Assembly: GCF_003074135.1 (NCBI RefSeq)
Contig: NZ_PPDK01000001.1
Coordinates: 2,728,001 to 2,792,000, forward strand
Direction of reading: 5' to 3'
Length of the DNA: 64,000 nt
Source of the DNA: Euzebya tangerina
GTDB taxonomy: Bacteria; Actinomycetota; Nitriliruptoria; Euzebyales; Euzebyaceae
Made by a program: the position numbers and the translations under genes. The notes beneath the pieces were generated by a model, which was not told where the DNA came from, searched no databases, and saw nothing but the letters and a program-made list of their open reading frames with translations. This document shows positions 1,425 through 6,947 of this stretch, piece after piece. The first letter of the stretch is position 1. Every line of letters begins with the position of its first letter.

Positions 1425-4400
1425 CTACGGACCGATGTCGGCCCCGGCGTCCCCGAGGAGCGCTTCGAACTCGTCCACCTCGCGTTGGGTGATCGACGTC
1501 TGGTCACCGACCACCACCACCAGCTGGACCCGGTCGGCGACCAGCTCCGCGACGCGCGGGGCGGTGTCGGCACCTCCCTGCCCGTCGATGATGGCAACCG
1601 CGCCGCCGGTGTCCCCGGCCACGGGTCCCGCCGTCAAGGTGTTGCGCCAATCCAGTCCGGTCGTGACATAGACCGTGTCAGGGACCACCCCGTCCTCGAT
1701 CGAGGCGGCCAGGACGGCCGCGGACGTCTCGAACCTCGTGGCCCCCGCGATGCGGCCGACCTCGAGCAAGCCCGCCAGCTCGGCCGCGACGGCGTCCGAG
1801 ACCGCAGCCGTGCCGCCGATGACGGCGGCCCGTCGGATGTCATGTCGTTGGATGGTGCGCGCCGTCTCCTCCGGGAGCCGGTCCCGGTTCACCAGCAGGA
1901 TCGGGCGTCCGGTTGCGGACGCGTAGCCCGACACGGCCATCGCGTCCGGCCAGCCACGCTGGGGATCGGTGTTCTCCCCCTCGACGACGACGGCCTCGTC
2001 GTGACGCTGGCCCAAGGCACCAGCCACGAGCAAGGAGGTCTCGAAGCGGTTGCGCCCACCGATGCGCCGCACGTCGAGTCCGGCCTGGAGGAGCGCATCG
2101 GCCACGGCCGGTCGGATGGCGTCATCGCCGCCGAGCAGGATCGCCCGCGTCGCCCTCAGCCGCTCGAGCTCGATGCGGAGGGGGTCCACCAGCGTCTCGG
2201 GGTCGGTCAGCAGCAGGGGGGCCTGCAGGGCTGCGGCGAGCGGGCCGCCCGAGAGGCTGTCGGCGTAGACGTCATCACGGCCGAGGACCACGATCGGTGC
2301 CTCGTCGTAGGTCAGGACCGAGAGGGCGATCGACTGCTCGATGGGGGTCTGCCCCGAGAGACGGCTCACCGTGACCGGCTGGTTTGGCGCCGGCGGTGGT
2401 GGCGGTGGTGGTGGGGGCGCCGGATTCTCGTTCTGCAGGTGGTCTGGTATCCCATCCCCGTCGCTGTCTGCCGGCGCCGCCGGGTTGCCCGGGTCACCGG
2501 GCTGGAACGGTGCGTCGTAGCCGGCCTCCTCACCGTCCGGGGTGCCATCGCCATCCGCATCCTGATCGATCCGATCGGGCAGGCCATCCCCGTCTGAGTC
2601 CGGATCCGGCAGGGGGTTTGCCGCGATGCGATCGTCCCAGCCGTCGCCGTCCGGGTCGACGAAGTCGGCGACACGGCCGCTGTTGTCAGGATCCTGCCCA
2701 CCGGCCTCGATCAGGTCGGGGAGGCCGTCGTCGTCGCTGTCGAGATCGAGGAAGTCCGGGTCGCCATCGCCGTCGGAGTCGAGTGGCCCGCTCGGGTTCG
2801 CCGCAGTCGGATCGAACTCACTCGGGGGGTAGCCAGACTCGACACGGTCCGGCACGCCGTCGTTGTCGGAGTCCCGGTCCAGCCGGTCGGGAACCCGATC
2901 GCCGTCGCTGTCGGGATCGGGAAGACGTGAGGCCTCGAGGGCGTCGTCCCAGCCGTTGCCGTTCGCGGCGTCGGACTGGTCGTCCACCCGGCCGTCACCG
3001 TCGCTGTCGGCGCCGCCCGCCTCGACCAGGTCGGGGATGCCGTCGCCGTCGCTGTCCAGGTCCAGGTGGTCTGGTGCTCCGTCGCCGTCGCTGTCCGCGG
3101 TCCCCTCGGTGAAGTCGGGGATGCCGTCGCCATCGGCGTCCAGGTCGCGCCGATCCGCCACGCCGTCGCCGTCGGTGTCCCCCTCGCCCTCCTCGGCATC
3201 GGTCAGGCCGTCACCGTCCGCGTCGGGCAGGTCGTCGTCAGCAGCCCGGAAGGTGGCAGACGACTCACCGACCAGCCCGTAGACGTAGGTGTCGATGTTG
3301 CGGCCATCGCCGAAGCTGTCCGCCGTGAACGCCCCCCAGGTGTGGAAGCCATCCGGCTTGCCGTCACCGTCGCCATCCGTCGGGTTCGCCCGGTTGCCCG
3401 ACCGCGCACCTTCGGGGGTGTTCGCGGTGGCGTCGAAGACGTTGTCGCCGGTGAACCCGGCCGACAGGTCGTCCCAGAAGACGTTGGTATCGCGGAGTTC
3501 GAGGAAGTCGCCGAAGGCACGAGCCGCGAAGATCGTCAAGCCGGGGTTGTAGGTGCGAGGCGCCTCATCGTCGTCGGTCCCGCCTGAGGTCTCCACATCG
3601 CTGGCGATGAAGTGGAACTCGCCACCTCGCACCTGGATGCGGGCCTGGTAGGTGCCCAGGGGGACCGGTGTCCCGAAGGCGTCGTTGCCATCCCAGGGCA
3701 CCTCGTTCCGGCCCGGGGTGGCGCGCCCGATCAGCAGCACGTCACCGGGGTCGCCGAAGACCCCACCGCCGTCCACGTCGACGCTGATCGCGTAGTTGCC
3801 ACCGCTGATGTCGGTTGTGAAGTTGAACGTGCCCGAGTCCTGGATGCCGTCGGTACCGGGTGAGAACGTGGCGTCGGCACCGGGGCCGGAGTCGTCCAGG
3901 AACTCGGCATCGGTGACCGTCGGCGGCTCGACCGGCCGGGAACCGGCGACGGCGGGGTACCCCAGATAGAGGGGATACTCGGGGGTGACCGTCGAGGTGG
4001 ACTGCGGTGCGGAGATGCCGGAGAACGGTGGATCAAGCCCCAGGGCGTTCGCCGAAAGGGTGTAGCCCCCGCCGGCGAAGGTGCCGAGGTCCAACTGCCA
4101 GACGTAGTTGTCGGTTCCGTCCGCGCGGTGTCCGGGCGCCAGTGCGAACAGATTCACGTCGGTGGCCACGGACTCGCAGAACAGGTTGCACGGGGGACCG
4201 GCGTCCTGGGAGAGCAGTTGCCACTCGTAGGAGAAGGTCCGACCACGCGGGCGGGTCGGGTCCGGGTCGGTGGTGCTGTTGGGCGTGACGGTGATGTCGA
4301 AGCGGTCCAAGGTGGTCCCCGCCGTCACGTCCAGCGCGATCCGGTACGTGCCCGGGGTCGTGGGTGTGTATCGGAAGGGGTTGGCGAGGGGCCCGGTCAT

Positions 4401-4751
4401 CGGGTCGTCGTCGTCCAGGTTGTCGACGGTCCCGGTGCTCAGTGCCGGTCCGTCGTCGTCGACTCCGGGTGTGCCCTGTGAGTCGAAGACCCGGACGGTC
4501 GTCTGGCGCGACGTGGAGACGGTGATGCTCTCGCCCGCGGTCAGCACGTCGACGAAGAGGACCGTCGACTCGTCCAGTCGCTGTTGGGTGTTGAACTGGG
4601 CCGAGCCGGCAGCCGCTGCCGAACCGGCCCCGACGGCGATGAGAGCGAGGGCGCCAACCCCTGTGGCCAGCAGGCGGTGGACCGCAGGTGCGGCACGCGC
4701 ACGACGAGGGCCGGATCCGTGCGATTGCGCCGCTTTGCGCTCGCTCCTCAT
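1425..4751 (-). CDS. Secreted surface protein with DxDxDG calcium-type repeats and three C-terminal CWB2 cell-wall repeats
   Basis: A protein of 1108 residues starting at ATG 4751, preceded by GAGGG; the frame is open to 4859, but the upstream part lacks signal-peptide character. A signal peptide ([15 protein letters not shown], ending in an Ala-rich stretch) is followed by beta-rich extracellular domains. A long run of DSDGDGIPD-like thrombospondin type 3 calcium-binding motifs spans about residues 507-770. After a proline run come three cell wall binding repeat 2 (CWB2) units (about 794-1107), with IGG/IAG-(R/T)RFETS junctions. CWB2 triplets anchor proteins non-covalently to wall polymers. 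A structural or adhesive surface role is inferred. It is divergent from the HD-GYP gene. Confidence 0.9.
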
Positions 4752-4859
4752 CACGCTGACCCTCGGTGCGTCGATGTCCTGATTCCCGGTCTCGCAGGGT
4801 AAGGTTACAGTGACGCAGAGGGCGTTCGCCCGTGAGTGTGGTCGAGACTGAAGCGGCAC

Positions 4860-6947
4860 ATGGATCCAGGTGAGGTAGCGGACAGGCGTTGGGCACAGCG
4901 CCCGGTCCTGGCCTTCCTGGTGGGGGCGCTCATGGTGGGTCTTCCCATCCTCGGGGGACTCGTCGTCTCGCTCTACCTCGCGCGGGCTCTGCCGGCCCCT
5001 GACGGCATCGGTCAGTCACTGGCCTGGTGGGCGGCCGTCATCGGTGGTGCCGTCGTGGGCGCGCTGGTGATCGAGCGGCTGGTCAGGCGGCTGGCCCCAC
5101 TGCGCATGCTGCTGCGCGGATCGTTGCTGTTCCCCGGGAAGCCACCACCCCGCTTGAGCGTCGCCGCCCGCCAGTCCAGCAAGGAGCAGTTGCTCGACCG
5201 CATCGACGAAGCGGTTGCGTCGGAGAGCGGGGATGCCGACAGCCAGGCGATGACGCGGATCCTCACCCTGGTCGCCCAACTGCAGGCACACGACCGGAAG
5301 ACCCGAGGTCACGCCGAGCGGGTGCGGATGGTCACGGATCTGATGACGGCCGAGCGTGGACTTCCCGAGCCCGACCGCGACCGGATCCGCTGGGCTGCCT
5401 TGCTCCACGACATCGGCAAGATCGACATCGACACCGAGGTCCTGCACAAGCGCGAGAAGCTGGACGACGACGAGTGGGAGGCCCTCCGGAGACATCCGGA
5501 GCTGGGGATGCAGCGGTGCGCCCCGCTGATCGGCTGGCTCGGACGTCACGCCGGCGGCATCGCCGAACATCACGAGCGGTTCGACGGCACGGGATACCCG
5601 AGGGGCATCGCGGGGACCGACATCGCCGAGGCCGCGCGCATCATCGCCGTCGTCGACGCTTTCGAGGTGATGACCGGCAAGCGCCCCTACCGCACGCCGA
5701 TGAGCATCCCAGCTGCCAAGCAGGAGCTGCTTGACAACGCGGGCACCCAGTTCGATCCCAGCATGGTCAAGACGTTCCTGCAGCTGTCGACCCGGTCGCT
5801 GGGCAAGGCCGTCGGCTTCACTGCTGGTCTGGGTGCGGCGGCCACGCTACGACCGTCACCGGACACGGCCGGTGTTGTGACCAGCGTCGGCCTTCTGGGC
5901 GTTCTGGCGCTGGGCGGAGTGGTGGCGCCGCCCGAGCCGACGACGGTCGAACAGAGCTCGACGGATGATCCTGCCGAGGTCGTGGTCGAGGAGCCGGCGG
6001 ACGAGGGGCCCGCGGGCGGCGGGTCTGGCGGGGACGGTGGTCAGGGTGGCGGTGGAGGTGGTGCCGGGTCGTCTGGTGCCGATTCGGACGCTGCTGCTGG
6101 TGCCGATGAGGCCGGTTCGGAGGATGCCGGGTCCGGCAGCAGCGGATCGGACAGCACCTCGACAGCAGCCGCCGACGATGTGCAGCCGGCAGCGACAGCC
6201 GATGACGATGGGGGTGCCCCGAGCAGCGACGCGGCCGGTGACCCAGGCGGGGCCGGTCCCGCGCTGGGTGCTTCAGGTGGTGGGGGCGCGACGGGCGCCG
6301 GTACCCCTGGAGGTTCGCCGGGGGGCGGAGGCGGACCACCTCCTGCTGCCGACCCGCCGCCTCCGCCGCCTCCGCCGCCGCCCGTGGACCCGCCTCCGCC
6401 GCCTCCGCCGCCGCCTGCGCCCGCACCAGATCCGACACCAACGCCCATCCAGCCGACGGCACCGGCGGTGGCACCCCCGGCGACCGGCGCGCCTGACCCT
6501 GGGGTCACCCCAGAGCCGGTCCCCGTCACTGATCCGCCGCCGTCCCCTTCGCCGTCCGTGGACCCGCCTCCGCCGCCCCCGCCGCCTCCGCCCGTGGACC
6601 CGCCGCCCCCTCCTCCGCCGCCGCCTCCCCCTCCACCGCCCCCACCACCGCCCGAACCGGAACCACCACAAGCCGCGGACGACGCCTACGTCGCGCCCTT
6701 CTCCGGTGCAATGGGTGCGCTGCCCGTGTTGGAGAACGACAGCGACCCCGACGGCGATCTGGATCCGACGACCGTCACGGTGGTGAGCCAACCGGCGAAC
6801 GGGACGGCCACGGTTCTGGCGGATGGCCGGGTGAGCGTCGTCATGAGCGCCCTGTTCACCGGTCAGGACCAGTTCACCTACCAGGTCTGCGACACGACCG
6901 GGCTGTGTGACCAGGCCACCGTGTTCCTGACCATCGGTCGCCGCTGA
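4860..6947 (+). CDS. Membrane HD-GYP domain protein with proline-rich and Ig-like C-terminal extension
   Basis: A protein of 695 residues from ATG 4860; GTG 4836 is also possible. Two N-terminal membrane helices (about 15-37, 55-77) precede an HD-GYP domain (about 135-315). All expected metal ligands are visible: the His of RGHAER, HD in LLHDIGK, His in RRHPELG, HH and GYP in [12 protein letters not shown], and Asp in [13 protein letters not shown] proteins hydrolyse cyclic dinucleotides, typically c-di-GMP. A further hydrophobic segment (about 341-357) leads into a Gly/Ser/Pro-rich region with long polyproline runs and a terminal Ig-like domain (about 605-693, [10 protein letters not shown]). 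Predicted topology puts the enzyme inside and the tail outside. This coupling of a signalling hydrolase to an exported module is unusual. Confidence 0.85.

Follow-up and report, generated by a model that had tools for sequence, protein, structure and literature searches.

Serine/threonine kinases of the PknB type consist of a cytoplasmic catalytic domain, a single transmembrane segment and exported PASTA domains. The domain layout of RsgI comprises a cytoplasmic regulator, a transmembrane segment, a low-complexity stretch and interchangeable exported modules. The RsgI anti-sigma factors of Clostridium thermocellum are cytoplasmic regulators with exported sensing or binding modules (PMC12203970). 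Inside-out signalling is known for DvhD of Desulfovibrio, a membrane protein with a cytoplasmic HD-GYP domain serving as a c-di-GMP switch, where an exported dCache domain precedes the PAS and HD-GYP domains (PMC13090378). In HD-GYP proteins, E/D and Y/F subgroups have been described according to the third-metal position, and the E185A substitution in PmGH reduced hydrolysis but did not abolish it (PMC4159591).

The gene considered here occupies positions 4860..6947 on the plus strand of the window, that is, the whole analysed stretch of 64,000 nucleotides from Euzebya tangerina (contig NZ_PPDK01000001.1). Its frame is open from ATG to TGA over 695 codons without an internal stop, and an in-frame GTG at 4836 is an alternative start. 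The 695-residue product contains, in this order, a membrane hairpin, an HD-GYP domain, a third candidate transmembrane segment (TM3), a low-complexity linker and a Big_9 domain. We judge it to be a wall-anchored or wall-sensing c-di-GMP phosphodiesterase, both the sensing and the catalysis being predictions. The Pfam matches HD_5 and Big_9 lie in one and the same frame, as they do in the relatives L078 and L080. The earlier note raised the concern that a frameshift might have merged two separate genes. However, the GC content of third codon positions is coding-like on either side of the linker (0.88 over the HD-GYP domain and 0.86 over Big_9; it is lower in the proline/glycine linker itself), and a frameshift joining two genes across the linker is therefore very unlikely. 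Given also the single frame and the parallel architectures in relatives, a fusion artefact was rejected.

The catalytic domain spans residues 141-301 (5280..5762, plus strand) and matches the Pfam profile HD_5 with 111.5 bits against a cut-off of 27.2 (E = 4.8e-32). The nearest structures by sequence are those of V-cGAP3 (5z7c, 4.8e-35), PmGH (4mcw, 3.3e-28) and PA4781 (4r8z, 2.3e-21), and the nearest by fold, as found by Foldseek, are 4r8z, 4mcw and the DvhD structure 9rbz. Alignment with the family and with PmGH places the HD pair at H183-D184 (5406..5411, plus strand; PmGH H221/D222). The motif HHExxDGxGYPxxxxxxxI ends at residue 255; its part up to GYP covers residues 237-247 (5568..5600, plus strand), with GYP at 245-247. 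Residues H151, H183, D184, H212, H237, H238 and D266 correspond to the PmGH metal ligands H189, H221, D222, H250, H276, H277 and D305, and the catalytic pair D183/K225, essential in PmGH, is kept as D145/K187. The claim of the earlier note that all metal ligands and the GYP motif are present thus holds for seven of the eight ligands and for GYP, but not for the third-metal ligand E185, which is replaced by K147. The protein shares the fold and the motifs of PmGH, PA4781 and V-cGAP3 and differs from them by this lysine, by the membrane hairpin before the catalytic domain and by the exported tail after it. It falls outside the trinuclear E/D-T-G subgroup, while still belonging to the HD-GYP family.

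The same position is not glutamate in 29 of the 30 family members described below, the single exception being L074, and it is arginine or lysine in 17 of them. These enzymes therefore lie outside both the E/D and the Y/F subgroup. Since the E185A substitution in PmGH only lowers hydrolysis, activity is still likely despite K147. All 30 members retain the equivalents of D183, H189, the HD pair, K225, H250, the HH pair, D305 and I294; in L126 GYP is replaced by GYH. As the catalytic residues are kept throughout, catalysis is probably under selection in the family, and the window protein itself is likely to hydrolyse c-di-GMP.

Relatives were searched for with the hairpin and HD-GYP module alone as the query. 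Homologues that match the module over its full length, TM1 and TM2 included, were found in genomes of the same genus, the same order and the same class, as well as in an Acidimicrobiaceae genome (L003) and in a contig filed as Melainabacteria (L004). With the transmembrane region included, family members score 220 bits and more, versus at most 140 bits for other HD-GYP proteins. In an evenly drawn sample of 396 Actinomycetota genomes the full module occurs in 17 (E < 1e-125, the next matches being at about 1e-70), and in two other classes it occurs in 7 of 27 and 6 of 60 genomes. The 30 members are monophyletic relative to 33 other HD-GYP domains in a maximum likelihood tree of the HD-GYP domain alone (support 100/99; 99% of bootstrap trees). 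The hairpin and the HD-GYP domain are conserved as one unit. In every member compared, this same pair is followed by a hydrophobic stretch after the catalytic domain and then by a tail of low complexity. This apparently is a previously undescribed family of HD-GYP proteins with exported tails, present in several actinobacterial classes. No paper on HD-GYP proteins with PASTA or Ig-like tails was found in a search conducted mostly without subscription literature, which is weak evidence of novelty, and titles and abstracts on HD-GYP and cadherin yielded nothing relevant. Plasmid records contained no full-length relative. The contig of L004, filed as Candidatus Melainabacteria, carries a member of a family otherwise seen only in Actinomycetota and may reflect a binning error.

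The earlier note described some 250 residues rich in Gly, Ser and Pro ending in an Ig-like domain, and this description proved accurate. The linker comprises 245 residues (357-601; 5928..6662, plus strand), with a G/S/A/D-rich half followed by a P-rich half that contains four runs of 9-18 prolines; in total it has 82 Pro, 43 Gly and no Lys or Arg. A largely polyproline linker of 245 residues could span tens of nanometres, as estimated from polyproline II geometry, a length that would suffice to get through the wall of a monoderm cell. The tip is a bacterial Ig/cadherin-like Big_9 domain (residues 602-691; 6663..6932, plus strand; Pfam E = 3.6e-18, 66.7 bits against a gathering score of 23.6). 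It carries the cysteine pair C677/C683, the only cysteines of the protein outside the enzyme. The tails have two cysteines in the window protein with its one Big_9 domain, eight in L078 with four domains and 20 in L080 with ten. Two cysteines per domain are the number expected if each domain forms one disulfide outside the cytoplasm.

Other proteins combining an HD-GYP and an Ig-like domain, for which the earlier note had suggested a search, do exist: Big_9 domains occur in the tails of 10 of the 30 members, in one to ten copies. Besides the proteins just listed, there are three and two copies in the pair at L077 and two each in L133, L134 and L135. In the draft copies L075 and L081, Big_9 domains are encoded just downstream of the open reading frame in the neighbouring frame, which suggests draft-assembly frameshifts or broken tails. 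Two members end in a single PASTA domain (L126:4399-6099, 1.2e-13; L128:4336-6069, 3.4e-12), and the others have no recognised Pfam domain in the tail. Both L077 proteins and L121 share a C-terminal domain of about 150 residues without a Pfam match (blastp 6e-9). The end of L003, also without a Pfam match, looks FN3-like by eye, and the remaining tails are of low complexity only. Tail length varies from 41 to 1282 residues. The two members at L077:3856-9799 are arranged in tandem in one genome, and both have Big_9 together with the unnamed C-terminal domain.

The same-genus orthologue L074 is syntenic with the window gene: the module is 54% identical, and the adjoining downstream genes are the same (63% and 57% identical). 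However, its tail is Asp/Pro-rich and has no Big_9 domain, and hence these proteins can do without the Ig domain as such. The conserved part is the enzyme module with its predicted exported tail, and the tip is exchangeable. With an orthologue lacking Big_9 and most members lacking a recognised tip, no single ligand is implied. Since PASTA is a wall-binding module, wall binding by the tail is better supported than matrix sensing.

The placement of the HD-GYP domain between membrane helices, also proposed in the earlier note, agrees with our analysis. TM1 (residues 15-43; 4902..4988, plus strand; KD 2.39; with W11 and P29 unchanged in every family member) and TM2 (residues 50-77; 5007..5090, plus strand; KD 2.03), the latter followed by a basic segment assigned to the inside, are clear. 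The AF2 model, built from a 42-row alignment, has helices at 15-43 and 50-77 with pLDDT about 91-93 and is confident for the hairpin and the HD-GYP domain; it shows no confident structure at TM3. The candidate TM3 (residues 338-356; 5871..5927, plus strand), the third hydrophobic segment of the earlier note, stands out in the window protein with KD 2.13, as the highest values elsewhere are 1.26 in the HD-GYP domain and 1.19 in the tail. It is hydrophobic but weak, with a Wimley-White octanol sum of -0.3. TM3 is weak in many other members too, KD going down to 1.2 and octanol sums often being positive. The mean number of Lys and Arg residues in the 30 members is 3.5 before TM1, 1.3 in the loop between TM1 and TM2 and 3.1 after TM2; after TM3 there are on average 1.3 Lys/Arg versus 3.7 Asp/Glu.

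From this we infer a topology with the N-terminus in, the loop out, the enzyme in and the tail out. It is well supported: the tail is placed outside because of the PASTA ends, the cysteine pair in each Big_9 domain and the charge bias, and hydrophobicity agrees with these, but TM3 is weak. We consider the exported-tail architecture highly likely. An alternative is that the post-catalytic segment (5766..5849, plus strand; GPxSWLxxxPF in relatives) crosses the membrane together with TM3, leaving the tail in the cytoplasm. The moderately hydrophobic stretch GPxSWLxxxPFL of relatives could be read in this way. However, the corresponding stretch of the window protein is no transmembrane candidate, scores across the family are mostly below those of TM1 and TM2, and the cytoplasm is not where PASTA, Big_9 and paired cysteines belong. 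A cytoplasmic tail is thus very improbable, and the post-catalytic segment is probably interfacial.

TM3 could also act as an internal signal peptide. Cleavage there would detach the tail, which would either be released or stay behind in the wall, and the enzyme and the tail would be separate mature proteins. Indeed, TM3 is short, rich in Ala and Gly and signal-peptide-like, and in some relatives it has AxA-like ends (APAVAA/S in L004, ADA/QT in L078). On the other hand, sequence rich in Ala will often contain AxA by chance, and in the window protein the candidate site is followed by proline (GGVVA/PPEP), which is unfavourable for signal peptidase I. We regard cleavage as improbable. In the preferred reading, with the tail exported and attached, the idea of the earlier note that an intracellular HD-GYP enzyme is tied to a surface module is upheld as regards the covalent link to a tail that, from charges, PASTA and cysteine pairs, is most likely exported; the Ig-like domain is no fixed part of the arrangement, as L074 demonstrates.

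The attached tail may serve as a tether only. A constitutively active phosphodiesterase would then be fixed at particular sites in the wall, creating a local zone of low c-di-GMP, and no signal would cross the membrane. This would agree with the conserved catalytic module and the interchangeable or absent tips, and with the fact that nothing between the HD-GYP domain and TM3 looks like a helical or coiled-coil coupler, there being just a short semi-conserved segment. However, tails without a binding domain would be poor anchors, and the observed tails are longer and more varied than a tether requires. A pure tether therefore seems rather unlikely. As to whether the tail controls activity and does not merely anchor the enzyme, we consider the chances to be even.

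The upstream neighbour (1425..4859, minus strand) is divergently transcribed, and its product, predicted to be secreted, has numerous DxDxDG (thrombospondin-3-like) repeats, three CW_binding_2 repeats and a polyproline run of its own. It is not conserved beside relatives, and in about 28 neighbourhoods no conserved neighbour gene or operon partner was found apart from recent syntenic pairs. With 40 GGDEF matches and some 22 EAL proteins encoded in the genome of E. tangerina, c-di-GMP signalling is present. The genome has only two HD_5 proteins, both belonging to the exported-tail family. Flagellin was not found in this genome, which makes flagellar control unlikely as the output. Elsewhere in the genome (G000 C2:112642-139153, L142-L153), three adjacent frames of 2204, 3941 and 3686 residues encode giant Big_9-repeat proteins, probably surface adhesins. 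Between the Big_9 domains of these three and the tip of the window protein, identity reaches 49%.

This common domain type would suit an inside-out receptor like DvhD or LapD, in which c-di-GMP on the HD-GYP domain alters the exposure of the tail and thereby adhesion or an extracellular partner. DvhD is a precedent for an HD-GYP switch with an exported domain (PMC13090378), and its structure 9rbz is among the Foldseek matches. However, DvhD has a structured dCache domain and a helical stalk, whereas a low-complexity linker of 245 residues is unlikely to carry a conformational change, and the exported part here follows the HD-GYP domain through TM3 instead of preceding it. Moreover, no LapG-like gene was recognised beside the window gene, no neighbour is conserved, and the catalytic residues are retained, as expected of an enzyme. 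Inside-out signalling thus has little probability.

The best overall explanation, which we hold to be about evenly balanced between right and wrong, is a membrane-anchored HD-GYP phosphodiesterase of a distinct actinobacterial family, in which engagement of the tail, relayed by TM3, sets or localises c-di-GMP breakdown. The TM1/TM2 hairpin would keep the enzyme on the cytoplasmic side, close to the membrane. The chain would cross again at TM3 and continue as a long flexible exported tail spanning the wall, and the interchangeable tip (Big_9, PASTA or other) would attach to material of the wall or the surface and so link the enzyme with it. Engagement of the tail, or tension on it, might be relayed via TM3, about 40 residues past the catalytic fold. 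Positioning or gating of the phosphodiesterase by tail engagement is the most likely role, and outside-in control of the predicted hydrolysis is what we infer.

The layout resembles that of the PASTA kinases, and the tails of L126 and L128 end in PASTA. However, the predicted output is cyclic-dinucleotide hydrolysis, the two relatives have one PASTA domain instead of several, the linker is long and there is an extra transmembrane hairpin. A Pfam scan of the window protein found no kinase domain, and the likeness is one of layout only. Similarly, RsgI is alike in layout, whereas its cytoplasmic part is an anti-sigma domain freed by proteolysis and unrelated in sequence. The window protein is a member of neither group.

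The conversion of wall state or surface contact into a change of c-di-GMP in Gram-positive (monoderm) bacteria is poorly known. Throughout the family, the enzyme and a predicted wall- or surface-binding tail are parts of one polypeptide, and the natural exchange of tips (PASTA, Big_9 or none) on the same enzyme module makes the link from wall to c-di-GMP directly testable. Tentatively, at somewhat less than an even chance, these proteins may form a new class of receptors of monoderm actinobacteria, in which wall state or surface contact directly controls c-di-GMP through interchangeable wall- or matrix-binding tips on a tail that crosses the wall. If so, they would be a second-messenger counterpart of the PASTA kinases.
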